Part shown: piece after piece, positions 1,518 to 23,073 of the stretch
Layout: every line of letters starts with the position of its first letter
Position numbering within the stretch: position 1 is the first letter of the stretch
Origin: a virus
DNA: 23,073 nucleotides
Reading direction: 5' to 3' (one strand)
Virus record (IMG/VR): IMGVR_UViG_3300007541_000230
Location: 1-23,073 of that record
Notes under the pieces: generated by a model
Databases searched by the model: none
What the model saw: the letters and a program-made list of their open reading frames with translations, nothing else
What the model was told of the DNA's origin: nothing
Made by a program: the position numbers and the translations under genes

Positions 1518-3161
1518 ATGGGATTAATTACACCAGCTCAGGGTTTTGCAATGTCTAGGGGGTTATATATTGATTTTACTAATATCAATAATAGCACTGT
1601 ATTTACTCCAACTTTTTCATTTAAAAAACTAGTCAGTAATACTCCTATTGATGTTATTAATCTTCCAGGATATGGCTATATTTTTCTAGGAAATAATGAT
1701 ACTTTTTCTTTTGTTCCTCCTGATACATTTATTAGTCGTTTAAATGCTTTAAATTTATCCTTTCATGGTAATACTAAAGTAAAACAAATGTTTGAAAATC
1801 TTATTAATGGAGAAGATTCTTTAGATATTGTTTTAATTGGTGATTCTAATGTAGGATATAGTGTAACAACAGGAATTTATGGTTATGCTAATGGTATATG
1901 CAATACTCTAATTAGTTTAGGAGTTCCTGTGTATGCTTCAAATCTTATTCCTTGTCTGAGTCGAACTGCTGCTGCTCCAGGTTCTTATAAATACATGAGT
2001 GAAGCTGGCGTTACAACTGTAGATCCTGGGCGAACCGCTAATCAAAGCGGCGTTAGTTGGCTTATTCCAGGAAATGAAACAGAATATACAGAAATTTCAG
2101 CTTTATGGAATTCAGGATCTAGTAATGAGTTATCTCCATCAGGCGGCAATACAAGACTAGATTGGTCGTTTTTAGATACGGGTGCTGTTACTAGCGGTTC
2201 ATATTATATTGAAGTATCGTCTGTATTTGGCATTAAAGTACCAATTACTTATCGTGTTGGATATGCTACATTTCCCTCAGGTGGTTTATTTTACCCCCGT
2301 ATTTATTTAACTTCTGGAATTACATTATCTACTACTACAGTTAACTCTACACGAAACGTAAGTGGTGCTTTATATGAAATCCTTGAGTTATCTGCAACAC
2401 CTTCAGACAAAAATAATCTTAACATTCGATGCAGTAAATTTGCTGGCTCTACAGCTGCAACTTCACCTTGCGGTTTCTTATTTGAGTCTGTAGTAAAACA
2501 GAATACTAAAGGTTTTTCTGTTTCGTCTTACTTACATCGTAGTGGCGGACAAACAAATACAAACATTAAAGCAGCAATTCAAGAAACTGAGTCTTCTACT
2601 TTAAAGATTTTTGTCAAAGAACTTAGAGACAGACAAATATATGCTGGAGGTTCTGGAAAAGTTGTATTCTTTACAAACTCAGGTGTTAATGGCAATGAAA
2701 TTTCAGCTGATTGGTTAACAGGAGTACAAGCTCTTGTTTCAAGTATTCGTAATGCATGGTTAAGCAATGGATTCCCTGAAGAAGATTTAGGTATTATTAC
2801 CTCAACAACAGCTCCTCCTGATGCAAATTATATTTCAACTTCTTATACTCAATGGACTGCTCAAAATACTGTAGGTATAAATAATTCAGGATTTTTTGAA
2901 TTTAGTTTTATTTCTATGAGCACATTAACTTCTTCTGCTGAGTTAACTTCAAATCTTTACCATGCTGGAGCTGGAAACACTGTTCACTTAAGTAACGCAG
3001 GATATAATTTTGTCTCTAATAAAATTATCCAACAATTAATTAATGTCGACCCCATTGATACTTTACGATATGGTGGCGATATTCAACAAAACGGCTACCT
3101 CAGTCCATTTGAGGAAAATTATCATAAAACAGGTCTTAAACTTTTTAAAAAACTAAAGTGA
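1518..3161 (+). CDS. Probable virion protein with SGNH/GDSL-type hydrolase (esterase) domain, 547 aa
   Basis: The start at 1518 follows GTGAGGTAATCTA. The N-terminal 30 residues and C-terminal 14 residues match the 117-aa protein upstream. Inside, DIVLIGDSN (GDSN at 108-111) fits block I of SGNH hydrolases with Ser110 as nucleophile. RSGGQTNTN near 342-349 could give the block II glycine, SGVN (388-391) the oxyanion asparagine, and GNTVHLSNAGY (486-496) block V with His490. The usual Asp of the DxxH pair is Asn487 here, so activity is uncertain. About 180 residues of beta-rich sequence (roughly 150-330) lie between blocks I and II and may be a carbohydrate-binding insert. Phage SGNH domains often deacetylate surface glycans; that role here is inferred. 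Very AT-rich. Confidence 0.8.
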   Translation: MGLITPAQGFAMSRGLYIDFTNINNSTVFTPTFSFKKLVSNTPIDVINLPGYGYIFLGNNDTFSFVPPDTFISRLNALNLSFHGNTKVKQMFENLINGEDSLDIVLIGDSNVGYSVTTGIYGYANGICNTLISLGVPVYASNLIPCLSRTAAAPGSYKYMSEAGVTTVDPGRTANQSGVSWLIPGNETEYTEISALWNSGSSNELSPSGGNTRLDWSFLDTGAVTSGSYYIEVSSVFGIKVPITYRVGYATFPSGGLFYPRIYLTSGITLSTTTVNSTRNVSGALYEILELSATPSDKNNLNIRCSKFAGSTAATSPCGFLFESVVKQNTKGFSVSSYLHRSGGQTNTNIKAAIQETESSTLKIFVKELRDRQIYAGGSGKVVFFTNSGVNGNEISADWLTGVQALVSSIRNAWLSNGFPEEDLGIITSTTAPPDANYISTSYTQWTAQNTVGINNSGFFEFSFISMSTLTSSAELTSNLYHAGAGNTVHLSNAGYNFVSNKIIQQLINVDPIDTLRYGGDIQQNGYLSPFEENYHKTGLKLFKKLK

Positions 3162-3462: not shown

Positions 3463-4380
3463 ATGTCAGAACTAAATAATGCTGAACAATCCCTTCCTGA
3501 GGGGACTCAGCCAGAGATCGTTAATACCACACCAACTGAAGATCCTGTTACAGCACACGAAAGAGCCGCATTTATGCGCTATGTGCAAGATCAAGGCCAG
3601 AAGATTCCCAGCAACTTTAAGTCGGCTGAGGATTGGTTTAACAGTCTCAAAGAAGCCCAAAAGATGGCTACTCAAAAAGCTCAGGAACTTGCTTCTCTTA
3701 AGAAGCAGTACAATCAAAACGGGGTGACCAATCCCAATTATGTGGACTCACCCCCAGCTCAAGCTCAGCCAGAGCAAGTCGAGGATCTTTCTGGTATTCC
3801 AGAGGATCTAAAAATCAGTACACCACCTACTCCTCAACCATCCTCTAATAAGGTTAGTCAGGAAGATTGGCTTCGTTGGGGCAAGGAAATTGACTCAACG
3901 GGTGCCGTAAGCGAGGCTACCAGACGAGAGATTAAGGAAAAGATGGGTGCTGATGAGGTAATTATTGAGCAGTTAATCAAGGGACGCCAGGCTTTAGCCA
4001 AGCAATCTTGGAATGATGCAGCATCGGTTGTCGGAGGGAATGACAACCTGAAGCGCCTTTTCAAGTGGGCTCAAGAGTCTTTAACTCCTGAAGAAGTGGC
4101 TGCCACTAATCGTGCCTTACAGACCAATGCTTATAAGAATGTCCTCCTTGGACTCAAGGCTCGGTTTGAGCAACAAAATCCAGCAAAGCCGAAGGAACCT
4201 GCGGCATTGCCTAATCGTGTAAATCCTTCTCAGGTTCCACAATCCGTACAAGTATTTAAGAACTTAGCTGAACAACAAGCTGCACTCAGGGACCCACGGT
4301 TCCGAGTAGATTCAAATTATAGAAAAGCAGTCGAAGCTATGGTTTTTAATTCATCTAAGTATGGGTTTAGAAATCGTTAA
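3463..4380 (+). CDS. Scaffolding (capsid assembly) protein, T7 gp9-like, 305 aa
   Basis: The ATG at 3463 lies behind AAAGGAGAG. The protein is hydrophilic and rich in Gln, Glu, Ala and Lys with several Pro-rich linkers, as expected of a scaffold; T7 gp9 has 307 residues. The C-terminal part has LAEQQAALRDPRFRVDSNYR, resembling the xxLxDPRYxxDxxYR block near the end of T7-family scaffolds, followed by a basic end (YGFRNR) that could bind the capsid shell. It sits directly upstream of the major capsid gene, the usual place. Scaffold would fill the prohead core and leave before or during packaging. GC is higher than in the preceding AT-rich paralog pair. Confidence 0.88.
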   Translation: MSELNNAEQSLPEGTQPEIVNTTPTEDPVTAHERAAFMRYVQDQGQKIPSNFKSAEDWFNSLKEAQKMATQKAQELASLKKQYNQNGVTNPNYVDSPPAQAQPEQVEDLSGIPEDLKISTPPTPQPSSNKVSQEDWLRWGKEIDSTGAVSEATRREIKEKMGADEVIIEQLIKGRQALAKQSWNDAASVVGGNDNLKRLFKWAQESLTPEEVAATNRALQTNAYKNVLLGLKARFEQQNPAKPKEPAALPNRVNPSQVPQSVQVFKNLAEQQAALRDPRFRVDSNYRKAVEAMVFNSSKYGFRNR

Positions 4381-4476: not shown

Positions 4477-5832
4477 ATGCCAGAAAATACACAAAATTTA
4501 TTCCCTATTGATTCACTTCCAGCCGTTGGTAGTACTGCTCCTGATAATATGGTTGGACATGATGGTTGGCCGTTAGGCGGTCAAGCAGCTTCTGCTACCA
4601 GCATTCCTTCAGTTTCAGGCTCGACCAATCCTTCGTACTGGCTTCCTATTTGGTCAGGCGAGGTCATTAATGCTTATGATCAGTACAATATTTTTGAGCC
4701 AATGGTTACTACTGAAACTATTGAGTCAGGTACAACTAAGCGTTTCCCAGTAACTGGTACCGTTCAACACAAAGGTATTTGGGAAGCTGGTGAAGAGCTT
4801 ATCGGTAATGAAGGTATTTCAACTCCAGGTTGGTTCGATATTTCACTTGATCAGCGTCCAATGGCCGCTTACTTTGAGCTTGATGATATCCACCTCATGC
4901 TTACTCAGTGGGATTACCGCGCTGAGTTAGCTCGCCAAGCTGGTCTTCAGCTTAGCTACATCCGCGACAAGCAAATTGCTTGTATGATTGCTAAGGGTGC
5001 TTTTACTGCTAATCGTAGTCCATTCTCAAGCGATTACTCAGGTATGAATCATTCAAGCAATGTTGTTTTAGCTCCAGATGCTGCATTTAATAAGCTTGGT
5101 CTTCGCGGTGCAAGCCAAACTGAGCGTACTAATGCTGCTCTTAAGCTTCTTGAGTACATTGAGCTTTACATGGTTCGTCTCAGCGAAATCGACGCTACCC
5201 TTGGTGAAGTCTACTGCGCTGTAACTCCACAGGCTTTCCACGACATCCGTGCTCTTGGTATTGCCCGTGATGCTACTGGCCTTCTTGGTGGCGCTGGCCG
5301 TCCATTCTTCGGTGGTGTATCCGAGGCTGGTGGTCTTGGTGCTGGGCTCAACACAGGTATGTTTGGTCTTGGTGAAATGCTTGAGTACATGGGTGTTAAG
5401 ATTGTTAAGAGCAACCACCTTGCTCAACTTGACCACGCTAAGGTTGAAAGTGGTTTAAATGCTAATGCTGCTTCTGGTTTAGACTTAGTTACTGGTCAAT
5501 ACGCAGCTGCTGATGAAGTTACTGTTATTGGTGATCTTGGTGATGCTAAGTATAACTTTGCTTGGTATAACGGTGATGTTGGAGATGGTACTGGCGATCT
5601 TGGTACTACTGTTGTTGGTGATGATGGTGTTGTAGCAGGAAGCCAGACTCTTAAGCCAATTAAGGCACTCATTTGGCAGCGTTCAGCTGTCTGCTCACTA
5701 CGCCTACAGGGTATGAAGGTTGAAACCGTCAAAGATGTCCGTCGTGGTACATTCTTCACCGTCAGCTCAATTATGGCTGGTGCTGGTATCCTTCGCCCAG
5801 AACTCTGCGGCGCAATTCAAGGTACTTATTGA
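4477..5832 (+). CDS. Major capsid protein, T7 gp10-like HK97 fold, 451 aa
   Basis: The start is ATG 4477 with AAGGAG at 4463-4468. Order and sequence fit T7-like capsid proteins: PIWSGEVINAYDQYNIFEP near 57-75, ESGTTKRFPVTGT (83-95), then WEAGEEL and the D/DDIH block (135-140), WDYRAELARQAGLQLSYIRD (145-164) at the start of the long helix, and a C-terminal MAGAGILRPELCGAI block typical of marine podovirus capsids. It is longer than T7 gp10A (345 aa). Part of the excess is a Gly/Asp-rich segment at about 345-390. Codon choice is distinct, with many GCT, GGT and CTT codons and higher GC, as expected of the most highly translated gene. A strong terminator follows directly. Confidence 0.95.
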   Translation: MPENTQNLFPIDSLPAVGSTAPDNMVGHDGWPLGGQAASATSIPSVSGSTNPSYWLPIWSGEVINAYDQYNIFEPMVTTETIESGTTKRFPVTGTVQHKGIWEAGEELIGNEGISTPGWFDISLDQRPMAAYFELDDIHLMLTQWDYRAELARQAGLQLSYIRDKQIACMIAKGAFTANRSPFSSDYSGMNHSSNVVLAPDAAFNKLGLRGASQTERTNAALKLLEYIELYMVRLSEIDATLGEVYCAVTPQAFHDIRALGIARDATGLLGGAGRPFFGGVSEAGGLGAGLNTGMFGLGEMLEYMGVKIVKSNHLAQLDHAKVESGLNANAASGLDLVTGQYAAADEVTVIGDLGDAKYNFAWYNGDVGDGTGDLGTTVVGDDGVVAGSQTLKPIKALIWQRSAVCSLRLQGMKVETVKDVRRGTFFTVSSIMAGAGILRPELCGAIQGTY

Positions 5833-5910: not shown

Positions 5911-6063
5911 ATGAATAAGAATATTCCTAGTCGTGGTCTTGGAGATACCATAGCAAAAGCGGCTAAAGCTATTGGTATTAAACAAAAGCCAGGTTGTGGT
6001 TGTGAGAAACGACAAGCCTTGCTCAACAAAGTAGTTCCGTATCGGAAGAAGGGAGCTAAGTAA
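5911..6063 (+). CDS. Small conserved CxC phage protein, 50 aa
   Basis: The ATG at 5911 follows CCAAGGAGATTACA, just 15 bases past the terminator T-tract. The protein has GLGDTIAKAAKAIGIKQ, then PGCGCEKRQALLNKVVPY and a basic end. The layout (GLGDxxxKxxKxxGIK, a CxxC- or CxC-type pair, then KRxxxLNKxxPY) is one I recall from many phage genomes near head and tail genes, with no function that I know. The two cysteines here are CGC. The stop overlaps the next ATG (TAATG). The gene is the first after the terminator and leads the tail-gene operon. Confidence 0.8.
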   Translation: MNKNIPSRGLGDTIAKAAKAIGIKQKPGCGCEKRQALLNKVVPYRKKGAK

Positions 6064-6725
6064 TGGGACTGTACAGCTATACTGAAGCTATCAATCATAT
6101 GCTGCTGTCCTCTGGTGAACATCTGATTTCTGATTTAGAAAATGAGGCGGGGGTCGATACAAGTGTCGCCCAGTTTATTTTAAACCAGTCAATTAAATCG
6201 GCTGTGATGAGAGGCATAGCTAACAACAGATATGTAGATACCTATACTCCTGAAGTTAATGGAACTATTCTGTTACCTTCTACTGCTTGTTACGCCCAGG
6301 TTGTTGAGCCTTTGTTTGATCCTACGACGGGGGAGGTGATCCAGACTACAATTAAGTCCAATCCAACAAGGCTGTTCAACATCACCAAGCAGACAGATGT
6401 TTTTGAAAAGGAGTTAAAAATTGAAGTTATTATTACTCTTGGCAATGCTGCTAATTATTTTGGGTGGGATGATATTGACTCGGCTTTACAGCGAGGAATA
6501 ATGGAAACAGCAGCTAGGGAGTATCAAATGATAACTCAGGGTGATCTAGATGTTGATAAGCGACTTGCTCAACGCGAGATGTATCATCTTGCTCGCGGTC
6601 GCGCAGGAGACATTTTCAAGAAACATAGATCTATTTTTGCTGGTGGAGATCCTGGTACTAGAGCCGCTATTGATAGGCGGGGTATTCTCAGCAACGATCC
6701 ATACTTTACAAGAACGAGGTTCTAA
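6063..6725 (+). CDS. Tail tubular protein A (T7 gp11-like), 220 aa
   Basis: The start overlaps the previous stop by one base; GGGAG at 6051-6055 is the ribosome site. Typical blocks are SYTEAINHMLLSSGEHLISDL at the N-terminus, AQFILNQSIKSAVMRGIANN (about 36-55), a beta hairpin leading to LPSTACYAQVV, and C-terminal AAREYQMITQGDLDVDKRLAQRE. T7 gp11 has 196 residues. The protein forms the dodecameric upper tail ring that joins the portal to the nozzle and supports the fibers. The next gene is its usual partner, tail tubular protein B, two bases downstream. Confidence 0.93.
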   Translation: MGLYSYTEAINHMLLSSGEHLISDLENEAGVDTSVAQFILNQSIKSAVMRGIANNRYVDTYTPEVNGTILLPSTACYAQVVEPLFDPTTGEVIQTTIKSNPTRLFNITKQTDVFEKELKIEVIITLGNAANYFGWDDIDSALQRGIMETAAREYQMITQGDLDVDKRLAQREMYHLARGRAGDIFKKHRSIFAGGDPGTRAAIDRRGILSNDPYFTRTRF

Positions 6726-6727
6726 TT

Positions 6728-9541
6728 ATGCCATTGACAAGACTTACAATCAATACCCTATCAGGAGGCGTTGGCCGTCAGGCCCCTACTAAGCGTCTTA
6801 CTTCAGAGGCTGAAAATATCGATAACTGTTTGGTAACGGTTGAGAAGTCTGTCGAAAAGCGTCCACCCCTCAGTCGGGTTGCTTATTCTACACAAGCAGG
6901 ACCTACAGACTCGTCATATCTTCCCGTATCTAACTTGGATGCCCCCGCGGGTTTTAATCCAGATAACCTGTATTTTCATTATCTTGATATTGATGGTTTC
7001 CGTCGATATTGTATTATTATTAATAGAGCAGGATATCCCTGGGACCCTACCCAAGTGGGAGATGATTATGGATTATTCCGTAAGGAAGTATCGCCAGGTG
7101 TGTTTGTCGATATTAACCTGAGTCATTTTATTACTGTGTTTAGAATAGAGCCCACTGAGTGGGTGGAAGAACCTGTTGATATTAGTGCAGGACTGGAATC
7201 TAATACTAGTGGATTTAACCGAGGAATTTTTGAGTACTTAACCTTTGGTAATAAAGATACGGAATCGTCTTATCGTGTCGCAAACCAAGTTTATAGCAAT
7301 GTTGCAGCTGCATCTATTGATAATACCTTTGGCTCAATGGATTATAATGTAGGCTGCATCTTATGGAATAAACTTATTCCAATTGATTACATGCCCGACA
7401 ACGGAGACTTAGATGGTGAAACAGCATCTAATTGGGTTGCTCAAGTTCCAAATGATGAATTTATTCACTCAGGCGACGTTATTAACTACAAAGTGGCAAA
7501 TCTACCCAATACTCAAGTTCCCAGCAATGAAGACATTATCAATCCAAATAATCCTGGAAATGGTTATTGGCGGAATGTACGAGATGATATCGATTTTGAA
7601 ATAGATCCAGATACTTTGGAAGAAAATGAAATAGGACAAAATGTAGAAAACTTTAGTATTGTTCCACAATATCCTGCATCAGAAGTCTATAATGATGTAA
7701 GAGATGCAAATGGCTATAAGGCTCAGCGTATGATGCATCATTATTATGATGATCCGCGTTTAATTCCATTTGATGAAGTAGCTGGTGTAGATTTTTTTAA
7801 AGATCATTATCAATTTACCTCACCTCTTGCTGCTGAAGAACGCGATGATTTAACCTCTATTGCAGATGGTTTTGGTAAGGTTTACTTTTGCCGTAACTCA
7901 TACTTAACCTTTCCTTCGGGATTCTATCGGGCTACTCGTTATTCAAAGAATCCATACTTTGAGCGACTAAGATCAGAAGGCCCAAATACTGTTATTGATC
8001 ATCGTAGAATGCCTATTATTATTTATAAAGATACGGCAACCGATGGTAACTGGCGTGTAGCTCATATGCCCTTGTTTCCAAGAAGAGCAGGAACAAGCCT
8101 AAGCAACCCAGGTCCAAAAGCGCTCGAGCGCAAAGAACGCATCCAATCAATGGCTATTTGGAAAAATAGAATGTGGATTGCTACAGACAACACAATCTTT
8201 GCTAGCAAAGCAAACAGCTTCTTTAACTTCTGGGTAGATGATGTTACTAATGTTGTAGAAACCGATCCAATTGATATCCAAGCTAGCGTTGGTGCCTACA
8301 ATAAACTTAGCTATATTGTACCCTTCCAGACAATCTTATTTGTAGCTAGCTCTGGTTCAGTACAGTTTGAGGTCCGTGGTGGCTCCATTGATACAGGTAT
8401 TTCTCCATTCAATGTTGAGTTCCGACCTACATCGTTCTACTCGACTTCTAAGCTTGTAGAACCCCAACGAATGGGTAACAATATCTTCTTTATGGATGCA
8501 GGCCGTATGTACATGTACCTAAGCGGCAGCTCTTTTAATGATGAATACTCAACTTCGATTGATGTAAGTACGCAATGTAAGGGTTACTTGCCTAGTACAT
8601 TTGGACCTGTAAATGCTTCGTCGGCTATTAATTCGTTAATGTTTGTAGATGGAGATAATACAAATCAAATGTATTTCTTTACCTTTAGAACCAATGGCGA
8701 TCAAGTTATTCAAAATGCGTTTTATAAATGGATTTTTGCTCCTGAAGACAACATTGTTTCTATGAAGTCCTACGAAAAGGATCTTTATTTAGTATCGCGT
8801 AGGCCTTTAGGACCTTCGGAATCAACTTCAGAAACTCGTTTAGTTGTTTATTTAGCTTCACTAGAAACTGTCCCACTGGCTACTCCAATGGTTGATGGTC
8901 TAGTTAAAACAGCCAATATCAATTACAATATCAACAGTCTTCAGACTCAGATTACATTACCGCATTATGATCCTTCGCTTGAAGATGGTTATGTTATACT
9001 CCCTCCAGAATGGAATAATGATGCTTATACAGTTATTCCTATAGTTGGTGTGGGTGTAACTTTTGAAGGTGGTATTTATAAAACTATTGTAGCTATTGAT
9101 GGTAATTATTTTCAAGAAGTTGAAAATACCCCACTTCCCGTATATGTAGGTCGAGCATATCAAATGAATATTGAGCTTTCACAACAAGTTCAACGAAGTA
9201 CTCCAGGTCGCGGAACGTCCTCTAATGAAGTTTATGAAGGTGTTCTTAATCTTAAGAAAGCTTTATTTAGACATCTTTATTCTGGGCCCTACAGTGTAGT
9301 TGTGCGTCGTAATAATCGACCAGATACGGAAGTAATGTTCCAACCAACAGATCTTAATAATATTATTACCCGAACTGATCAACTACGAATTGATACCTTC
9401 GGAGAAAAAAGTGTTAATATTCTTTCGTTCTCGGAAAAGGTACAAATCTTTATTCAATCTTCATTTCCAAATCCCGTTAACATTACTAATATAACTTTTA
9501 CAGGTAACTTTAGAAGTTCTAAGGCTACTGCAATAGAGTAA
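6728..9541 (+). CDS. Tail tubular protein B / nozzle (T7 gp12-like), 937 aa
   Basis: The ATG at 6728 follows CGAGGTTCTAATT. The N-terminus (TINTLSGGVGRQAPTKRL, then AENIDNCLVTVEKSVEKRPP) is the family signature. The central block RIQSMAIWKNRMWIATDNTIF (about 471-491), SKANSFFNFW and PFQTILFVASSGSVQFEVRGG are also characteristic. The family forms the hexameric tail nozzle through which DNA leaves. It is longer than T7 gp12 (794 aa). Residues about 236-283 (WVAQVPND, then HSGDVINY, then NPNNPGNGYW) look like a small inserted carbohydrate-binding-type fold, related in pattern to one in the fiber gene downstream; this is tentative. Confidence 0.93.
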   Translation: MPLTRLTINTLSGGVGRQAPTKRLTSEAENIDNCLVTVEKSVEKRPPLSRVAYSTQAGPTDSSYLPVSNLDAPAGFNPDNLYFHYLDIDGFRRYCIIINRAGYPWDPTQVGDDYGLFRKEVSPGVFVDINLSHFITVFRIEPTEWVEEPVDISAGLESNTSGFNRGIFEYLTFGNKDTESSYRVANQVYSNVAAASIDNTFGSMDYNVGCILWNKLIPIDYMPDNGDLDGETASNWVAQVPNDEFIHSGDVINYKVANLPNTQVPSNEDIINPNNPGNGYWRNVRDDIDFEIDPDTLEENEIGQNVENFSIVPQYPASEVYNDVRDANGYKAQRMMHHYYDDPRLIPFDEVAGVDFFKDHYQFTSPLAAEERDDLTSIADGFGKVYFCRNSYLTFPSGFYRATRYSKNPYFERLRSEGPNTVIDHRRMPIIIYKDTATDGNWRVAHMPLFPRRAGTSLSNPGPKALERKERIQSMAIWKNRMWIATDNTIFASKANSFFNFWVDDVTNVVETDPIDIQASVGAYNKLSYIVPFQTILFVASSGSVQFEVRGGSIDTGISPFNVEFRPTSFYSTSKLVEPQRMGNNIFFMDAGRMYMYLSGSSFNDEYSTSIDVSTQCKGYLPSTFGPVNASSAINSLMFVDGDNTNQMYFFTFRTNGDQVIQNAFYKWIFAPEDNIVSMKSYEKDLYLVSRRPLGPSESTSETRLVVYLASLETVPLATPMVDGLVKTANINYNINSLQTQITLPHYDPSLEDGYVILPPEWNNDAYTVIPIVGVGVTFEGGIYKTIVAIDGNYFQEVENTPLPVYVGRAYQMNIELSQQVQRSTPGRGTSSNEVYEGVLNLKKALFRHLYSGPYSVVVRRNNRPDTEVMFQPTDLNNIITRTDQLRIDTFGEKSVNILSFSEKVQIFIQSSFPNPVNITNITFTGNFRSSKATAIE

Positions 9542-9550
9542 GGAGAGACT

Positions 9551-12500
9551 ATGGGCTGCTTTGATTTTTCTTCTGATGATCCAGAATATTTAGATTCATT
9601 TAATGGTGTGGCCTCTATTGAAGTTAGCTATGCTAATACAGGAGTAGGACCCTATTCCTTTAGCTCTATTAGTCGACTTTGCGATATCCCCGCATCAGAT
9701 CAAATCTGTGTATATGTAGATGATGGCGTTACCGAAACGCAACTTACTTATGCAATTGACTACTCAATTAGTGGCGAAAATGTAACTTTAATTAATGCTG
9801 TCAGTCAAGCAACTATTATTATTCGTAGATGCACTCCCAATACTAAAATGTTTAGTACATTTGTTGAAGGAGCTAAACTTACAGCTAAACAACTAAATCT
9901 TGTGCTTTCGCAGTTATTGTTTATTTCACAAGAAAAAACTTTTGTTCCTTCTACACAAAATCATTATTATCCTTTATCAGCTAAAGTAACACCGTGGAAT
10001 GTATCTATTACATACGCAGCAAACCAATATGTTAATTACAACGGATCGATCTATCAATCTAAGATTTCGGGAAATGTAGGAAATCAACCAGATAGTAGCC
10101 CAACTGAGTGGGACTTTATTGAATTTGCAACTAATGGTTTTATTATAAGTGGTTCGCCTCTTAGCTATCCTGTAGAGTTTGATCTTTCTGGGGTCCAACT
10201 TAATCAAGGACTTGTTTGGAATGGTACTAAGTTTACCGCAGGGTTTATTGAAGGCCCCTCGTTAGATAACTTAAGTGATGTTATTATTACTTCAGCAAAT
10301 ACAGGTGATTTACTTCGCTATAATGGATCTAATTGGGTTAACTTTACCCCACCTTTTATTATGCTATCAAATGATTTTGAGTTTAATGTTTGGGCTTATT
10401 ACAAAAACCAAGCTTCCCTTAATCAAGCTAAAAATGATTCCGCAATTACTTTAAATGCGGACAAATGGAATCCATTTAAAGACACCGAGAGGTGGGTTAT
10501 ACCCAATATTCCTACTGTTTATGGGGTAATTAAAAATACTCTTCCATCAAGCGAACAACCTCCTGGAAGTGAAAATACCGCTGTTGAAGATTTCTTTACT
10601 CGGGTCTTAAATGCTGTAAACCTTGTTGAGACAAACACAGGAAATCCCATTAAAGCCCAGCTATATTGGAACTTAAATCTTAGGCGTTACCCAGCTTGGG
10701 AAGATACTGATAGCGGCGAACCATTAGATTCGTTTAGAACAGTTTTTTGGGATAAACCTTTAGAATTATACAATGTAGATATGTGGTCAAATCCCAAAAG
10801 TTTACAATACTCAGGTACTAATCTAGGCAAATCTACTGGTGAATTATATGAACGAGAAGCTTTACAAAATGCTTATTGGGCTGAGCTATATACAGGGGAA
10901 AATACTATAACATTTCAATCTAAGCTATATGGATATAATATTGAAGATAAAGGATTTTATTTGTCTGTCCCTGAATGCTACACCACATCTCTCAGCAATT
11001 TACCTATTATTAATGAAATAACGGACAATTATTATGCATTAAGTGACATTATTACACCTGAAATAATTCAAACTAATTTAAACGATAATGAGGGAATTGA
11101 CCGAGACAACTATTTAGCACAGCTACGCGACTTTGCTTTTGCTGGTTTTAGGACAGACAACACAGGATCTGGTACAAACAAAGGAAGAGATAAAACAGCT
11201 AGAACCTTTAAGAACAAAATGCTAGCTGCTAACTATAATGGGTTTAATAATGTTTCATTTAAACGACTAGAAACAGAAGAAGATGCAACAGATGTTCTTT
11301 GGAAAATGCCTGCACAAATTATTTATTTTAATAAATATGCTTTAGCTTTTGCAAATAATTCTACAGCAACTTTTGGAATTGAAAACGCGTTTGTTAATTT
11401 AATGAAGGGTACTCGGTTTACTGGTCGACATGTTGCAGAACAAGAATCTACTTTAGGTACTTCAACTATTCAATATGCAACAGGTGGTATATACAAAAGT
11501 GATAAAGTGTGGAGCGCGTGGTGCTCACGCTGGAGTGATGATGCTCCGGACAATATATCTTTTAATGAAGCGGATATTGAGTGGATGGTTTATAACTGTC
11601 CAAATACAACAAACAACTTTGGTGATTTCTTTGCAAATAAATTTCTTAAAACTAATCCAGCCACAACAGGTCCTAATCCCCCTCGATCTGGTACTATCTA
11701 TCCTTGGCTATATCGACCAAATAATTTTCTAAAAGAGGGAAATGTTCCAAACGGAGAGCGACAATTGAATGGATCACTTGGTACTCATCTATTTAATTTA
11801 GATTATAATAAATTGTTTTCAGAAGCTCATAATTTTGTTTCAGACCCAAGAGATGAATATGTGTTTAGAGTAGTTTTAAAACCAACTTTAACGGCAGTTT
11901 TCCGCAACCCTGCTCACAATTCTGCAACACCTCAAACCGCTGTTATTGTAGATTACGGTTTTAGTGAAGAAACGGACTTAACTACGGCTAATAAAACAAC
12001 TTTAAGCGAAATCTTTAAAAAAAATAAATCCAATATAAATGCTAGTTTTAGGAAAGCTAAGTTTAATAAAGAAAATGTATTTATATATGTACAAAATGAG
12101 CATTTTGAAGAGCAAAACGGTATTGCAAGATATGTTTTAACTTTATGTATTTCTGTTCCACGACTAAAATCAATCGGCTATAGTCGAATTTTTAGAAGAG
12201 CTTTTCAATCTACGCCTACTAGTACCTATGTACCAGCTGCTCAGGACAATACCGAAGATACAGATAAAGACTTAGGTCCTTGGACTTTTGAATTAAAGGT
12301 TCCTATATGGAACGATCCAAGGACCGATTCAAATAATTTAGGGCTTAGTGGTTATGATCATCTTTATAGTAATGCTGGACCAACTAATGAGTGGACAGCC
12401 GTAGGCAAACCTCAATTAGTTGCGGGTCGTAATGAATGTGCTGTTAAGTTTTCAAGAATGGGAATTCCAAGTAATCTTTGGATTAAACTATCTATTCTTA

Positions 12501-12553
12501 ATTCCGATGGTACTTCAACTTTATTAAATTCTAATGGTTGGATTGTACCTTAA
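9551..12553 (+). CDS. Tail fiber, T7 gp17-like N-terminus with unrecognised C-terminal region, 1000 aa
   Basis: The start follows TAAGGAGAGACT. Residues about 20-130 match the T7 fiber tail-attachment domain: GVGPYSFSS, ICVYVDDG, YAIDYSISG, IIIRRCTPNTK, FVEGAKLTAKQLNLVLSQL. Residues 149-189 (WNVSITYAANQYVNYNG, IYQS, then PTEWDFI) resemble a small CBM5/12-like carbohydrate-binding fold. DNLSDVIITSANTGDLLRYN (about 238-257) is a linker pattern common in fibers. The remaining 730 or so residues are aromatic-rich and lack repeats, a chaperone motif or an enzyme motif I know. They probably form the receptor-binding part. T7 gp17 has 553 residues. Strongly AT-rich. Confidence 0.88.
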   Translation: MGCFDFSSDDPEYLDSFNGVASIEVSYANTGVGPYSFSSISRLCDIPASDQICVYVDDGVTETQLTYAIDYSISGENVTLINAVSQATIIIRRCTPNTKMFSTFVEGAKLTAKQLNLVLSQLLFISQEKTFVPSTQNHYYPLSAKVTPWNVSITYAANQYVNYNGSIYQSKISGNVGNQPDSSPTEWDFIEFATNGFIISGSPLSYPVEFDLSGVQLNQGLVWNGTKFTAGFIEGPSLDNLSDVIITSANTGDLLRYNGSNWVNFTPPFIMLSNDFEFNVWAYYKNQASLNQAKNDSAITLNADKWNPFKDTERWVIPNIPTVYGVIKNTLPSSEQPPGSENTAVEDFFTRVLNAVNLVETNTGNPIKAQLYWNLNLRRYPAWEDTDSGEPLDSFRTVFWDKPLELYNVDMWSNPKSLQYSGTNLGKSTGELYEREALQNAYWAELYTGENTITFQSKLYGYNIEDKGFYLSVPECYTTSLSNLPIINEITDNYYALSDIITPEIIQTNLNDNEGIDRDNYLAQLRDFAFAGFRTDNTGSGTNKGRDKTARTFKNKMLAANYNGFNNVSFKRLETEEDATDVLWKMPAQIIYFNKYALAFANNSTATFGIENAFVNLMKGTRFTGRHVAEQESTLGTSTIQYATGGIYKSDKVWSAWCSRWSDDAPDNISFNEADIEWMVYNCPNTTNNFGDFFANKFLKTNPATTGPNPPRSGTIYPWLYRPNNFLKEGNVPNGERQLNGSLGTHLFNLDYNKLFSEAHNFVSDPRDEYVFRVVLKPTLTAVFRNPAHNSATPQTAVIVDYGFSEETDLTTANKTTLSEIFKKNKSNINASFRKAKFNKENVFIYVQNEHFEEQNGIARYVLTLCISVPRLKSIGYSRIFRRAFQSTPTSTYVPAAQDNTEDTDKDLGPWTFELKVPIWNDPRTDSNNLGLSGYDHLYSNAGPTNEWTAVGKPQLVAGRNECAVKFSRMGIPSNLWIKLSILNSDGTSTLLNSNGWIVP

Positions 12554-12563
12554 GGAGTTTTCT

Positions 12564-12782
12564 ATGGATTTACAATCTTTAATTACATCTCTTACATTCA
12601 TTGGGTCGTTAATATGGGTGGGCTATATAATTAATCAACGAATTTCTTCCATAGAAGTTACCCTTACAGAAATTAAAACTCTTCTTCAATCTACAATTGT
12701 TCGGATTGAGCATATTGAAAAAACCATAGATAAACTTGATAAAAGGGTTTCTGATGTCGAAAAAACAATCAATTGGAATTGA
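12564..12782 (+). CDS. Small membrane protein with coiled coil, 72 aa; lysis or spanin candidate
   Basis: The chosen start is ATG 12564, 9 bases after AAGGAG and just past the fiber stop; the upstream in-frame start at 12534 would lie inside the fiber gene and lacks a ribosome site. LITSLTFIGSLIWVGYIIN (about 6-24) is one membrane helix. The rest has heptad spacing of Ile, Leu and Val (ISSIEVTLTEIKTLL, IVRIEHIEKTIDKLDKRV) and should form a coiled coil. This layout fits inner-membrane spanin-like proteins and also small phage proteins of unknown role. T7 has its holin (17.5) at this place, after the fiber. Its last 29 bases overlap the next gene. Confidence 0.75.
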   Translation: MDLQSLITSLTFIGSLIWVGYIINQRISSIEVTLTEIKTLLQSTIVRIEHIEKTIDKLDKRVSDVEKTINWN

Positions 12783-13326
12783 TGTACCCGTAGTTGTAAT
12801 TCTTCTTTTAATTGTCTTTGCTTTAGCTAGTTGCAAATCCCCAGTTAAATCTATTGCAGATAATGCCAATAAGATTTCTACTCTAGCTCAATCTAGTAAA
12901 GAGCGTTTCGAAAGAATAGAAGAAGCCGCTAAAACCGAGCTTATTGATGTACAATCAGTCCAGAAAGAAGCTAAGGCTGGAGTACAAGAGCAAGAAAAAA
13001 TTATTGCAACAACTAAAATAACCATAGTAGACCTAACTAAAGTACAAGATATAGTACCTTGGTGGGGGACTATGATTAATTATATCTTCATAGGGTTAAG
13101 TATCCTAGGTGTCCTGGCTATTCTATGGTACCTAGGTGTAGGTAACTTAACTCGAAATTTCTTTTATTCTTTAGGAATGTTTGTTCCTAAAAAGAAAGTT
13201 GAAGAAGCTAAACTAGTCCGCAAGACCCTGGCTTCGGACGATCCCGTCACTACCAGGGAATTAGTAGCAGCATTAAGAGCGTCTGATCCCGCTTTTGATG
13301 CCGCATACAAGAAAACAAAGGAGTAA
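12754..13326 (+). CDS. Membrane/lipoprotein-like protein, 190 aa, two hydrophobic segments
   Basis: The start is ATG 12754 with AAAAGGG upstream, nested in another frame in the last 29 bases of the preceding gene. The N-terminus has VPVVVILLLIVFALASCKSP, a hydrophobic stretch ending in LASC, which fits a lipobox with Cys as the lipidated residue. A hydrophilic, partly coiled middle (ERFERIEEAAKTELIDVQSV, VQEQEKII) follows, then a second membrane helix (MINYIFIGLSILGVLAILWYL) and a charged C-terminus. The nesting resembles overlapping spanin pairs, but an outer spanin would not have the second helix. A plain two-helix membrane protein is equally possible. The family is not recognised. Confidence 0.75.
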   Translation: MSKKQSIGIDVPVVVILLLIVFALASCKSPVKSIADNANKISTLAQSSKERFERIEEAAKTELIDVQSVQKEAKAGVQEQEKIIATTKITIVDLTKVQDIVPWWGTMINYIFIGLSILGVLAILWYLGVGNLTRNFFYSLGMFVPKKKVEEAKLVRKTLASDDPVTTRELVAALRASDPAFDAAYKKTKE

Positions 13327-13329
13327 TCT

Positions 13330-13458
13330 ATGTTAGCTAATATCGAATCGTTTATTGGTAGTCTTTGGTTTGCTGGTATGCTTGGCCTCTTTGGTTACAT
13401 TGTCGGCCATATTTTCCCAATCTCTAAGATTGTAAAGCTTTTTGGTAAGGGTGATTAA
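13330..13458 (+). CDS. Single-helix membrane microprotein, 42 aa; holin candidate
   Basis: The ATG at 13330 follows AAAGGAGTAATCT, and the TAA at 13456-13458 overlaps the next ATG. The product has a short polar start (MLANIES), one hydrophobic segment (FIGSLWFAGMLGLFGYIVGHIF, about 8-29) with a Gly-rich face, and a basic end (KIVKLFGKG). This fits a small holin or antiholin, and it lies directly upstream of the small terminase gene, as T7 17.5 does. T7 17.5 has 67 residues. The function is inferred from position and topology only. Confidence 0.68.
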   Translation: MLANIESFIGSLWFAGMLGLFGYIVGHIFPISKIVKLFGKGD

Positions 13459-13679
13459 TGAAAGAAAAGTTAAATAGATTACAGGAATTACTTATTGATT
13501 GTTTAATCTCTGATCTACACAATCCCGATAAGCAAACTCCTGGTTTATATACCGTCGTTCGCGGTATCCTCAGCGATCATAAGGATCAGGTAAACAAGAT
13601 TCCGTCTGAGGCAATTGAAGCTGTTGAAGAAGCTCTTCGTGAGCAAGCACCTTTTAAAATTAAGAAGGCTGCTTATTAA
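13458..13679 (+). CDS. terS: Small terminase subunit (T7 gp18-like), 73 aa
   Basis: The start overlaps the previous stop by one base (TAATG). The segment LIDCLISDLHNPDKQTPGLYTVVRGILSDHKDQVNKIPSE aligns with the T7 gp18 core, in which RMLADLSDHERRSPQLYNAI is followed by a LLDRHK and QIGKL stretch; shared positions include the D/L/SD start, the TPxLY or SPxLY turn, the L/DxHK helix and the KI/KL end. T7 gp18 has 89 residues. The subunit recognises phage DNA and regulates the large terminase encoded 9 bases downstream. Confidence 0.85.
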   Translation: MKEKLNRLQELLIDCLISDLHNPDKQTPGLYTVVRGILSDHKDQVNKIPSEAIEAVEEALREQAPFKIKKAAY

Positions 13680-13688
13680 GGAGGTTAG

Positions 13689-15350
13689 ATGAAAGTTCCA
13701 CAAGAAGTGATTGATGATTTTAGAAACCATTTATATTTCTGTTTCAAGCATCTGGGTCTTGGGGAACCTACTAAAATCCAATATGAACTAGCTCGCCAAA
13801 TCCAAGAAGGTCCAGATGACCAGATCATTGCAGCAGGCCGTGGTACTGGTAAATCCACCATTACTGCTTGTTTGGCGAGTTGGATATGGTTACGAAACCC
13901 CAATGGCACCTTTCTAGTATTATCAAATACCCAAGGTAAAGCCATTGACTTCGTATCTCAAGCAAGAAAAATCCTTTCCGTAGTACCATATTGTCAGCAT
14001 TTGGTACCTAGGGAAAACGATAAAGATAATGCACTTGGTTTTAACATAGCTGTTAGAACCAAGTTTACACAAGACTTATCCTGTGCTGCCCGAGGTATCA
14101 CAGGTCAGATTACAGGTCTTCACTCTGATTTTATTATCCTAGACGATATTGAGATTGCAGGTAAAAATGAAACACCAGTAGGCAAAGAAACTTTAATTAA
14201 GAAACTAGCCGAACTTGAGTCTATTAGAAACAAACCATCTAGGGTTATCTTCCTAGGGACGCCCCATTATCAGGACTCTATTTACAATGTCTTAAAAGAA
14301 TCCTACCCTATGATTAAGTACCCAGCCGAAGTCCCCGATCCTACCATTCCTTCTGAGATGGAGGATGTGGCAGATTGGGTGCTAGAATTGGCTCTGGAGC
14401 CAGGGGAGCCTACCCAGCCCGAACGGTTCGACAAGGCCGAGCTTGCCTCCAGAAAGGCTAAAATGGGCCCTAGCGCCTATGCTCTCCAGTATAAGCTGGA
14501 TACAAGCCTTGCAGACCTAGGAAGGTACCCCCTAAAACTACGGGATTTGATTGTTTTAGATATCGATCCCGAGGTAGGTCCTGATAAGATTGTATGGCAA
14601 GGGCAAAATCCAATGCCTGGGATGCCTGTATTTGGTATCTCAGGCGATATTGTCCCTGTCCCCATGCATGTCTCTAGTGTTTATCTACCCTTTCAGCAAA
14701 CAGTTTTGTTTGTTGACCCCTCAGGAAGGGGGGCTGACGAGACGGGTGTATGCGTGGCGTCCGTTCTGTCTGGTATGATATTTGTCCATGAACTCCTAGG
14801 TATTGAAGGTGGTTATGACGATGGTACTTTAAAAAAGATTGCTCGGTTAATAAATGAATATAAAGTAAACCTAGTTAGAGTTGAATCTAACTTTGGTGAC
14901 GGATTGTTTACTAAAGTTTTAGTTCCGTTTCTCTTGCAACACTGTGATCAAGTGGGCGTGGAAGAATACAGAGTAAGTGGACAAAAAGAACTAAGAATCA
15001 TCAAAACCCTTGAGCCTGTAATGGCGATGCATAGACTTTGTGTGTCTCGCAAGGCTATACGGGACCAAGAGAACCAGCTTCAGATTACCCGCCTCCATGC
15101 AGGCAGGGGCGCGCTTAAGCACGACGATAGGGTGGATGTGCTGTCAGCCGCTGTAGAATACTTCAAGGCTCATATGTCAATTGACACAGAACGAGCTAGT
15201 GAAGAATATAAGAAAAAGGAATGGGAACAAAGAGTCAAGGATTGGGCTAACAACTTTAGAGCAAGTGATTATGTTCCTTGTTCTGGAGCAACTAAGGTTG
15301 TTTCTACCAACCATAAACCTAAACAACGCAACAACCAATGGGGTTGGTAA
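13689..15350 (+). CDS. terL: Large terminase subunit (T7 gp19-like), 553 aa
   Basis: The ATG at 13689 has AAGGAGG just upstream. The N-terminal ATPase shows Walker A (AAGRGTGKST, about 48-57), Walker B (FIILDDIE, about 148-155) and coupling motif FLGTPHY (188-194). The C-terminal nuclease has FVDPSGRGADETG with Asp343, VRVESNFGDGLF with Glu399, and ALKHDDRVDVLSAA with acidic residues at 479, 480 and 483, which fits the RNase H-like metal site. T7 gp19 has 586 residues. It pumps DNA into the prohead through the portal and cuts the concatemer. GC in its middle (about 63 percent at 14401-14460) is far above that of its neighbours. Confidence 0.96.
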   Translation: MKVPQEVIDDFRNHLYFCFKHLGLGEPTKIQYELARQIQEGPDDQIIAAGRGTGKSTITACLASWIWLRNPNGTFLVLSNTQGKAIDFVSQARKILSVVPYCQHLVPRENDKDNALGFNIAVRTKFTQDLSCAARGITGQITGLHSDFIILDDIEIAGKNETPVGKETLIKKLAELESIRNKPSRVIFLGTPHYQDSIYNVLKESYPMIKYPAEVPDPTIPSEMEDVADWVLELALEPGEPTQPERFDKAELASRKAKMGPSAYALQYKLDTSLADLGRYPLKLRDLIVLDIDPEVGPDKIVWQGQNPMPGMPVFGISGDIVPVPMHVSSVYLPFQQTVLFVDPSGRGADETGVCVASVLSGMIFVHELLGIEGGYDDGTLKKIARLINEYKVNLVRVESNFGDGLFTKVLVPFLLQHCDQVGVEEYRVSGQKELRIIKTLEPVMAMHRLCVSRKAIRDQENQLQITRLHAGRGALKHDDRVDVLSAAVEYFKAHMSIDTERASEEYKKKEWEQRVKDWANNFRASDYVPCSGATKVVSTNHKPKQRNNQWGW

Positions 15351-16041: not shown

Positions 16042-19000
16042 ATGTCCCAAGTAAATATTCAAAACTTATTACAAATGCCAGCTATTGAACCTACCCAGGT
16101 TCAGCGAACTCCTGTTGAATTTAGAGAAGCATCTTTTTCTGGAGGAGCTTTCCGACCTGGTGAAATGTCGGCATTACCAACTAAAACTTCAGAACAGTAT
16201 ATGTATGAAGCACTTTCTCAAATTGCAACAGGAACCCAACAAGGTTTAAATACCTTTGCTGAGATTTCTTCAAGAATCGATAATCAACGCATTGCTGAAA
16301 CTGAAACGGAATGGGAGCGGATTGATGCTCAGGATATTGACCCCAGAGAAAAGGTAAAACAGTTTAACAACTATATTGGACAAGTGTCCACGCCAATGAG
16401 TAGCGATCTTTGGAAGAAAAAGATGGCTAATCGTATGTCCAAAAGCTGGGGCCAAGAAGCTTTTGAAAAGTTTGTAGCAGATGAGTATACAGAACAAGCT
16501 AAACAATGGGAAGAGTACGATGGTAAGATGGGTCCTGTCCTAACTAATAAATTTTTGGCTCAGTTTGAAAAAAATAATCCTTCGCTAACAGGATCAAATT
16601 TTGTTAAGTCTCTTCGTATTCAAACCGCTAAGCAACTTGATAATCTTCAAGATAAGTTAATGTCTAATGTTTTAGTAGCAAGTGTAGCAAACGATTTTAC
16701 ATTAGCGCCACAAGTTGTTGAAGGCTTAGCACAAGGAACAATAGATGCTGAAGAGTTAAGGTCTATGCATCCAAACAGCGTTAAATTAATTGAGCTAGCG
16801 CAATCCTCGCAAGATTTGGATGAGTTTAGAGATCATTTAGCTGTTGAGTTTTATGGGCCCATTCAAGATCAGATCTCTGGGTATAATCCCGAAACACAGT
16901 TTGATGTAAAGCTACAATTAGATGGTATATTTGCTAGTGTATCTCAACAAATCTGGAACCAAGCAACTCAAGTTCAACACGCCCAGAATGAACGAACTAA
17001 TGCTGCTTTAGCTCTTTCGGCTCAAACACCCTATGAAGCTGCACCTAATGAGCAAAACTTAAACGACTTTGCTATAAAATCTTCTTTGGTGTTATCAAAT
17101 ATGCCAGAATTTCAGCAACTAGCATATTTACAAAATGCATTTGTCAAGGTTTATAAGGGATTAGCTACAGGTAAATTTCCAAATTATTCTAATTTTACCG
17201 ACTTACCACCGAATAAACAACTACAAATAGCCGAAGAACTATTTGTCAAGGCTTTTAATCTTGAAGAGTTAAGTACTCATGTAATTAAACATAAAAAGCT
17301 TATTCAAACTCAAAATGCAAATTCTATTATGAGTTTTGTTAGGGATTCATTTAGAGTTTCTGAACAAGGTCAAGCCCTACAAAGTGGCGTACTAACTAGT
17401 GTCGATGAACTAACTGAGGAAATAATTAATTCAATTCAATTAAATCCTAGTCTACCACAAGACATTGCAATTGGTCGTTGGACAGAAGAACTTGCAAAAA
17501 GAACTGGATTAAGTATTACAGACGTCAATAACTTTTTCTTTACCCAAGCAAAAGATGAAGAAGGAAATGTTATTAAAGATGAAAATGATAAACCTGTTAT
17601 GGTTTTTGACACTCGGACCGTAGATCAAAAATTTACAGAAAATTCTGAGTTAGTAAATAAGTTTGTGAAGGCAGGTTTTACCCCTCCAGCTCTTCGAAAA
17701 CTTTCAGGATTTTTAGCTAAGTTAACTACAGATTGGAATCAAATTACTAGTGCGGGGGCTAAAACAGGAGCTCCGCGAGAAAGAGAATTCGTAACAATCG
17801 CAGATGCTTCTAAAAAACTTTTAACAGATCATAAATTTGTTGATTTAGTTCAGAAAGTAGTTAAAGATCCTAGCCAACTAGAAAGCCTTCCTCCAGAACG
17901 CATTGAGGATTTATTACTTGCTCAAGAGGCCTTGCAACAAGCCAATATTGAAGTACAAACTGTAGCTACTCAGGTTGCTTTAACAGAGCTTAATCTTTCT
18001 TCATCTGATATTGAATTACTTAGTACTGATGAACCACTTGATGAAATTGATCAAAATCGCCGTCTTCAACTACAAGAAATGTTAAACTCAAAAGTTACCG
18101 AATTGTATGGAGTTAATCTAGAAAACATTCAAGCATTTGATCCCCTAAAGCCAGTTAATTTTGAGTCTTTTTTTGAACAAGAGTGGGTTGAAAAAAATGG
18201 AAAATTAAGCGCAAATGGTCGTTTACTAGCATTGCGATCTATGTTTTATTCCCGAGAAATGGCCCAAAATATAGATGCTCCTGGTCAAGATACATTTGTA
18301 AAAAACTTAAGAGAAAAATTAAGACTAATAAACGAAAATAATCAACCTATTTCTGAACTTAATCGAAATGAATTATATCCTATTTTATATATGGTTCGTG
18401 GATTGAGTTTAGCTGATCAATCAAAGATTACAGCATTTGGAGGTGCATCTAGACTCGATAATCAATTAGGTACTCAATTTATTCGTTTCTTAGCTACTAC
18501 ACAAATTCCAGATAATTTATCTAAATTAGATAACTCAACGAAAGTTTTTTTAAATGCTGTTGATATTGCTTCTCGCGCACTCCGAGGAGGAGAAACCGCA
18601 GGAAAAATTTTAGATCCTATTAGCCAACGAGGTCTAATTAGTGTAAACCAAATTGCAGAAAATTTAATAGGAATTGGGGACGGCTCTCTTAAATTATTCT
18701 ATCCCGAAGAAGGTGAAGACTATGAAGCTTCCAAGCATACCGATCAAGCGTTAAATGCATTTTGTCAAACATTAGGTTTTTCTGAAGTTTCTTCTGATCC
18801 AGCAGAACGCTTAAATTTAGCTTATACATTTTTAATGTCTTTCTTGTCTCCTGGAAATAATGGTAAGCAAATTCCAGTTCTAGATCCTTCTTATACAGGA
18901 GATATGTATGTTACTTCTCCAGTAACAGGCAAACCAGTTTTATTTAGAGATATGCCTGCAGACGATAAACTTGCGTTTTATATAGGTAGAGCTGCTACTA

Positions 19001-23000: not shown

Positions 23001-23073
23001 TTGGGTATAGATTCGGCTGCTTACTTACAAAGCCTTGCTCAAGTACAGCCTAATATAGACCAAGCTTTAAGAG
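20064..23073 (+). CDS. Internal virion protein, T7 gp16-like, N-terminal 1003 aa (cut by window end)
   Basis: The start is ATG 20064, inside the ATGA overlap with the previous stop, and the frame stays open to the window end, so the C-terminus is missing. AGAGG precedes the start. There is a Gly/Ala hydrophobic region at about 413-450 (LIMAATAGIGTAVSAGLTV), then GVEGFIEEGVTDLLNQ near 527-542, a phrase I associate with phage ejection proteins. A charged coiled coil lies near 786-816 and a Thr/Pro/Glu linker near 910-965. T7 gp16 (1318 aa) starts with a lytic transglycosylase domain; no such domain is visible in the first 150 residues here. It would form the inner-membrane end of the ejection tunnel. 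Confidence 0.8.
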   Translation, partial: MSMMTSNPINLGLNTGVSPTDDSQTSQPLFNQKELEDLERFSSLIVWDSLKKNPRQNEFLKGLGNFEKPDEINGDSRQYFKRFQSVDAQDETQLSKMAQEAGLGDSGMLSYSPFSGGQWRQGTLGFHEASVVGNYLGSILELGSTNQNTTWAQTMMFLDTGLLEDSPAAEPILRDVPLFKTQKLPVPTGGNLMVEKDVYIKPDGSPLTASDLQNSGIDYDPSLITDPSQLITPDTVLQAGPEGVGIPASQLMPMTTELVSPGLGQLMRNEFEESLYNYNKDTVNNFERFWRIGDYGPATRYVSTLPVLDVIEAYVTIDDPVTTNPAWVALNRSNKINGAELVKTLKERDPNLVAAWTQEGVNWEVLEQATTAGEFRAHVNGVFVNNAIARSVTTSWKRDPYYSYLLSAREMAYGTLVSGDAVGQALIMAATAGIGTAVSAGLTVRGALAANRGATLSRAAIRVNLNSARRVRSILQNVVKTLPVNLPSTFLDLAATRLGTTLPRVAKLAQDAKKAGKGWKGTLWVLGQGVEGFIEEGVTDLLNQGYEYSLGMRSNLDLGQTWTQAWTGFLAEPILGAALAPVNLTTAFVINSPNLVVGHGARLLGLNSTRAREFNTYLSAFNGNWDNLNYVEQEIRMERIARGLVFEATFGRHADGKFRKIEDAEQTLSAIGAELSTLGSTATPTTVLEAGIALGEKLRDLNEKIEKDSLPEEVKIKLVEAINAGVLSVDSDQTLRLNEDIAEVLLGFIALGAQSSTKPTLKQAFIQEQVRKVILDRVRAENPELIKQIEQETDEKLKEELEKDLEAKVEEAKEIPDVSIAETLEKNLNLFLSLIPGTQEIITTETLSEETKKVFEDAQRELDEELQVRIDRLVQEHNLAIQLTSDFEVQEQPATPITVSGAAIGTQRRRTDTESVTAPTETALTPDITQTETTPEATGDQQTPPTSEAEPDQQVIPTPEATVTEKSELQTKVEEVLKTLGIDSAAYLQSLAQVQPNIDQALR
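22863..22955 (+). repeat. 36-base tandem repeat encoding a 12-residue Thr/Pro/Glu unit
   Basis: Degenerate units start at 22863, 22899 and 22935, exactly 36 bases apart and in frame. They encode TPEATGDQQTPP, TSEAEPDQQVIP and a partial TPEATVTEK. This looks like a flexible linker inside the gp16-like protein. The copy number is about two and a half. Confidence 0.7.

Follow-up and report, generated by a model that had tools for sequence, protein, structure and literature searches.

Gene content of the locus and layout of the tail fiber

The window, that is the whole stretch of 23,073 bases that was analysed, is an entire virus record (IMGVR_UViG_3300007541_000230). It carried a T7-like late module on the plus strand, in which genes for scaffold, capsid, tube, nozzle, fiber, small terminase and large terminase were all found:

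3463-4380, plus strand: scaffold gene
4477-5832, plus strand: major capsid gene
6063-6725, plus strand: tail tube gene
6728-9541, plus strand: nozzle (tail tubular protein B) gene, matching PF25675 (E 2.1e-71) and used as the anchor for finding relatives
9551-12553, plus strand: tail fiber gene (ATG start, 1000 amino acids), directly 3' of the nozzle gene
12534-12782 and 12736-13326, plus strand: two small genes of membrane/coiled-coil type, after the fiber gene
13458-13679, plus strand: small terminase gene
13689-15350, plus strand: large terminase gene
3' of the large terminase gene, plus strand: three genes encoding 220, 1341 and more than 1003 amino acids

The order was thus nozzle, fiber, terminases and then two large proteins (16042-20067, 1341 amino acids; 20064-23073, more than 1003 amino acids) that are presumed from their position to be internal virion proteins. 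Neither had a credible match in Pfam or PHROGs, and the best segments of the 1341-residue protein in relatives were only about 22–53% identical. The adjacent proteins encoded at 1155-1508 and 1518-3161 had a C-terminal tail in common, NYHxTGxxxFKKLK, and similar tails occurred in ORFs of L011, L017 and L061; this is perhaps a docking tag common to virion proteins. The protein encoded at 1518-3161 also contained a GDSN motif and, late in its sequence, a histidine, both of which we take to resemble those of SGNH hydrolases; it had no Pfam match even at E 1.

The fiber protein was divided as follows:

9551-9994, plus strand: residues 1-148, T7-type N-terminal attachment domain (PF03906)
9995-10111, plus strand: residues 149-187, CBM5/12-like module (PF02839), dispensable
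10112-10351, plus strand: residues 188-267, linker resembling stretches of other phage fibers
10352-12550, plus strand: residues 268-1000, conserved C-terminal domain of 733 residues, unmatched family
11660-11800, plus strand: residues 704-750, hypervariable loop region 1, where both models have low pLDDT and pooled dN/dS is 0.42
12287-12424, plus strand: residues 913-958, hypervariable loop region 2, lowest pLDDT in model 2, pooled dN/dS 0.71
12428-12511, plus strand: residues 960-987, the segment under strongest constraint, with two strands predicted to return to the core, pooled dN/dS 0.07

The initial annotation had read the N-terminal part as a T7-type attachment domain followed by a small carbohydrate-binding-like unit, which agrees with this layout, and had set an unrecognised C-terminus at 10350-12553, correct to within 2 bases since residue 268 begins at 10352. 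PF03906 (Phage_T7_tail) was matched at residues 52-129 with E 5.2e-5 and 23.4 bits, 1.8 bits short of the curated cut-off of 25.2 bits, and PF02839 (CBM_5_12) at residues 149-187 with E 2.6e-5 and 24.6 bits, just short of its cut-off of 26.2 bits. These predicted assignments become secure through the relatives: among 30 aligned full-length sequences, the window protein being one of them, PF03906 was matched in all 30 (E≤0.01; best 3.9e-9) and PF02839 in 21 (E≤0.01). The fibers of L029 and L031 had no residues at all in the CBM columns and kept the attachment and C-terminal domains; because they lack exactly these columns and keep all else, the CBM5/12-like unit appears to be a removable module, with these two fibers as natural cases of its loss. 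Linker residues 196-308 gave weak tblastn matches in Synechococcus and Pseudomonas phages. An aminotransferase (4m2j) that matched the attachment domain at E 0.004 was regarded as chance.

The C-terminal domain as a family in one phage lineage

In direct protein searches of viral contigs, the window protein matched only a second contig, IMGVR 3300025646_000902, which was 99.84% identical over 9577 bases; direct searches of this kind at first made the fiber seem an orphan. Relatives surfaced only through the nozzle gene, its protein identifying 64 loci among the viral contigs (IMG/VR). The window fiber aligned over its full length, at about 30–40% identity (tblastn), to those close relatives that reached far enough past the nozzle, and co-linear full-length homologues (33–42% identical) were located downstream of the related nozzle gene in uncultured IMG/VR phages. 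Searches with an alignment of the C-terminal domain and with the last 46 residues found 62 and 71 loci, respectively, with many contigs in common. Complete fiber ORFs formed 43 groups, with the window and its near-identical copy counted as two, and 66 distinct ORFs matched the profile when partial ones were included. The fiber frame opened no more than 200 nt past the nozzle stop in 83 of the 83 fetched loci that contained both (contigs counted more than once). The near-copy contig and the dozens of homologues rule out an orphan or a misassembly. Conserved at full length in dozens of contigs, residues 268-1000 are, judged by alignment, far from a chance sequence and make up a conserved family; the tip is no orphan.

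The absence of a recognised family, as claimed in the initial annotation, was borne out by every library used. PHROGs and Pfam scans of window residues 268-1000, whole and in thirds, returned chance rows only; with the 30 aligned members scanned singly in these two libraries, no family was common to more than one member, and an NCBIfam scan of 50 members gave no match. The proposed sensitive profile search, carried out with profiles of 30 and of 50 sequences against PDB sequences, gave nothing credible. A tblastn search of 50,697 phage records with the C-terminal part yielded no match even at E 10, two diverged relatives gave only chance matches in phage records (E 3–6), and no homologue was found in genome contigs searched with the protein and with the alignment. 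General searches of open-licence papers turned up no mention of the family in a title or in the opening lines of an abstract. Several library names were discarded as chance: IBD, NAPRTase_N, phrog_10788 and phrog_31505 (weak, from single-sequence scans), phrog_29953 (weak), and IS240 DDE, WASH-7 and MmeI_C, each in one of 30 members. The cryptochrome 6ptz (PDB sequence match, E 0.5 and 1.8) was likewise dismissed. Two other negative statements of the initial annotation also stood: no internal repeat was found in the protein, the only tandem array in the DNA being one 10-base doublet, and no Peptidase_S74-type chaperone family of Pfam occurred among 30 members at E≤0.1. Its description of the region as aromatic-rich applied only mildly, as the F+W+Y content of 13.0% was near that of residues 1-267 (12.4%) and of the nozzle protein (12.2%); tryptophan, at 2.6%, was the highest of 12 stretches compared.

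So far the C-terminal domain family appears to be confined to one lineage of uncultured T7-like podoviruses. A sister lineage of seven loci (L050, L055-L059 and L066), whose nozzle is 28–31% identical, has its fibers in the same place and with the attachment domain matched by the full-length profile. Its fibers differ in that neither C-terminal profile, A2 or A4, matches them; keeping the attachment domain without a C-terminal match is as expected if the latter is the receptor-binding end. The longest contigs of the window lineage (L026, L034, L064, L079, L158 and L165) measured 65–69 kb, which is well above the 38–43 kb of most named phages with the nearest terminases.

Predicted structure, inheritance and sites of change

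Two AlphaFold2 monomer models were compared. Model 1 (window residues 268-1000, 30 sequences) had a mean pLDDT of 62.8 and a pTM of 0.64. Model 2, of relative L031 (50 sequences, with the window protein as the second alignment row), had a mean pLDDT of 75.7 and a pTM of 0.77, with 502 of 735 residues at pLDDT of at least 70. Both predicted a mixed alpha/beta domain, and the elements followed one another identically in the two (window numbering): helices near 320 and 340, a strand at 367-374, a strand-rich part at 421-471, helices within 503-557, strands at 558-594, 767-804 and 844-877, and two last strands within 961-984, corresponding to model-2 residues 693-700 and 708-716. By eye, this predicted mixture of helices and strands is unlike the regular strand repeats of beta-helix depolymerases.

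Foldseek returned nothing at E≤0.001 (PDB for model 1, BFVD for both models). VIA re-alignment of PDB chains reached a maximum Z of 5.2 over 96–98 residues (OpgD with model 1, OpgG with model 2), and IL-12/IL-23 p40 and antibody or immunoglobulin-type domains gave Z 3–5 over about 70–100 residues with both models; by the tool's own guidance, Z under 8 is a level reached by models without a clear match, and these values are not significant. The Ig-like rows fell mostly on a discontinuous sandwich extending from about 460-471 to 984 (window numbering), a hint, at a non-significant Z of 4–5, that about 95 residues of the modelled core may form an Ig-like sandwich which the C-terminal strands close. 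Taken singly, the rows for antibodies, p40, OpgD/G, dodecin, GLIC and herpes gp2 were unsupported (E of at least 0.03 or Z of at most 5.2). A confident match to a tailspike or depolymerase fold had been named beforehand as counting against the idea of a new fold; the structural searches of these monomer models listed no T7-tip, beta-helix or other tailspike row, an absence that is weak evidence. The suggestion of a new fold stands unrefuted, in that a model with pTM 0.77 had no significant match (BFVD, re-aligned PDB chains), and is tempered by the weak hint of an Ig-like sub-sandwich. As both models are monomers, the absent fold match does not prove novelty, which is possible but unproven.

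Median pairwise identity (25 to 41 taxa per gene) was 0.79 for terL, 0.76 for tube, 0.70 for the major capsid protein and 0.61 for nozzle; within the fiber it was 0.46 for the attachment domain, 0.37 for CBM plus linker and 0.37 for the C-terminal domain. In correlations of divergence with near-identical taxa collapsed, the C-terminal domain followed nozzle (Spearman 0.67, 31 taxa; permutation p 0.001) and terL (0.65, 27 taxa; permutation p 0.001), close to the 0.70 observed between nozzle and terminase themselves (permutation p 0.001). This tracking of both genes points to a domain that, within the lineage, has mainly been inherited vertically together with the rest of the tail. Divergence of the capsid gene (4477-5832) hardly correlated with the other module genes (Spearman -0.0 to 0.23, 25 taxa); recombination in the capsid gene, variable insertions there and alignment trouble are possible causes of this discordance.

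Sites of amino-acid change were located by dN/dS in 13 pairs picked by hand from the listed close pairs, with L034/L103 added to these. Column classes chosen by conservation would have been circular, and loops defined by pLDDT were used instead; AlphaFold confidence drops where alignments vary, so that loop definition and variability are partly dependent. The low-pLDDT loops of model 2 (704-750 and 913-958) had a pooled dN/dS of 0.54 against 0.26 in the remainder (13 close pairs), and only one of 732 rotations of the loop mask attained this difference. With the low-pLDDT segments of model 1 the values were 0.46 and 0.25 (Fisher p 1.6e-15 on pooled counts, 13 pairs). Eleven of the 13 pairs were singly informative, L034/L103 being without synonymous change and L020/L094 without a loop value; nine of the 11 agreed with the excess in the loops, and L079/L081 and L161/L160 went the opposite way. 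Only L005/L009 had a loop dN/dS above 1, at 2.5; the pooled loop value was below 1, and a value in that range is no proof of positive selection. Elsewhere, pooled dN/dS was 0.07 for nozzle (11 pairs), 0.05 for terL (9 pairs) and 0.10 for tube (4 pairs), making the C-terminal domain the highest of the genes compared apart from a capsid value of 0.35 that was saturated over 3 pairs, unreliable and left out. Loop region 2 also contained large indels in relatives. The segments following the two loops, residues 751-775 (0.08) and 960-987, were constrained like the nozzle, and R960, E962, A964-F967, G971, P973, W977, I978, S981 and L983 were invariant in 30 of 30 members. The extreme end of the C-terminal domain is its most invariant part, contrary to the variable tip that would be expected.

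Role of the C-terminal domain and comparison with known systems

T7 gp17 is described in PMC8043750 as a homotrimer ending in a beta-sandwich tip; most host-range effects lie in the exterior loops of this tip, which phages often exchange naturally. From its position, and from a change by scaffold plus loops as in the T7 tip, we propose that residues 268-1000 are probably the head by which a T7-type fiber binds its receptor, with two hypervariable loops presented on a conserved scaffold. What was observed is the family itself, its pattern of conservation, the concentration of amino-acid change in loops, co-inheritance with the tail, and the lack of a known family in the searched libraries. The receptor-binding role suggested by the initial annotation thereby gains indirect support, from the distal position, the high dN/dS and the change in two loops. 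The N-terminal domain would hold the head to the tail, with residues 268-1000 distal and contacting the host; the mixed alpha/beta core, closed by strands 960-987, would act as scaffold, and the loop regions at about 704-750 and 913-958 would most likely make contact with the receptor and determine host specificity, with the CBM5/12-like module as an optional accessory. T7-type fibers are homotrimers present in six copies on each tail; for the window fiber, contact by the loops, the trimeric state, the orientation of the head and the nature of the receptor are all inferred.

Relaxed constraint in floppy loops that contact no receptor would also explain where change is concentrated, and the pooled loop dN/dS below 1 is compatible with it; furthermore, the tip of T7 is freely exchanged, unlike a domain that is inherited vertically and whose extreme C-terminus is invariant. 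Those same two features, divergence that tracks the nozzle and the strongly constrained segment 960-987, would suit a region that is mainly structural or trimer-forming, with binding left to the CBM-like module or to a different protein of the virion, for example the one with the GDSN motif (1518-3161). We consider this improbable, given a loop dN/dS about seven times that of the nozzle, the absence of the CBM-like module from L029 and L031, which prevents it from being the sole binder of the family, and the 733 distal residues, which on a T7-type fiber would be an unlikely plain shaft. An enzyme of unrecognised fold, a depolymerase or polysaccharide-modifying activity that cuts or trims the host surface, is slightly less improbable but still unlikely. 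Many charged and aromatic residues are invariant (for example E475, D519, R526, E574, D768, R773, E850 and E853) and could form an active site, and the CBM5/12-like module adjoins the domain in 21 of 30 members; CBM-like modules often adjoin carbohydrate enzymes. However, PHROGs, Pfam and NCBIfam gave no enzyme family, the monomer models had no significant fold match and their secondary structure did not look beta-helix-like.

The domain may also have the role of a receptor-binding head and yet a known fold, for instance an elaborated beta-sandwich tip or Ig-like domain, hidden from monomer models and libraries. This is a real possibility, somewhat short of an even chance: both models gave similar weak rows (p40, antibody domains, OpgD/OpgG), and T7 gp17 itself ends in a beta-sandwich (PMC8043750), but Z stayed under 8, only about 95 of 735 residues aligned, and Foldseek found no match at E≤0.001. 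We put forward as a tentative suggestion that the domain, of some 600–700 residues, is a new host-recognition fold in which C-terminal strands close a discontinuous beta-sandwich displaying the two hypervariable loops, and which is kept vertically and diversified by loop evolution instead of tip exchange.

If the receptor-binding head is as proposed, host recognition in an uncultured T7-like lineage relies on a domain family that the searched libraries, phage records and solved structures do not contain, and the lineage adapts by altering loops on a fixed scaffold instead of swapping tips. The deep alignment (50 diverse members), the defined loops and a confident model are enough to predict receptor-contacting residues and to seek the host.

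Among the nearest terminase matches, the Autographiviridae HTVC119P and HTVC200P (Pelagibacter) and CRP-118 (Roseobacter) have a T7-like module and a terminase 37.5–38.8% identical to that of the window, but these three genomes had no match to the full-length or C-terminal fiber profiles. The gene order of the module in HTVC119P differs from that of the window, and in both HTVC119P and HTVC200P large internal virion proteins lie between nozzle and fiber. The periplasmic glucan proteins OpgD/OpgG, IL-12 p40 and Ig-like domains resemble the domain in weak structural rows on the discontinuous sandwich (about Z 3–5), which are not significant, cover at most about 100 of 733–735 residues and come with no sequence relation found. 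With T7 gp17 the window fiber has in common an attachment domain of family PF03906, the T7-like module and a distal region in which change is concentrated in loops. It differs in that its gene directly follows the nozzle and precedes the terminases, and in that its 733 C-terminal residues, roughly nine times as many as the 83 of the T7 tip scanned in PMC8043750, did not match the sequence of any PDB chain credibly. In the same paper natural exchange of the T7 tip is said to be frequent, whereas the window domain was co-inherited within its lineage. As far as sequence comparison goes, the kind of machine is known and the domain family that it carries appears to be new, the far end of the fiber probably gripping the bacterial host through fast-changing loops on a steady scaffold.
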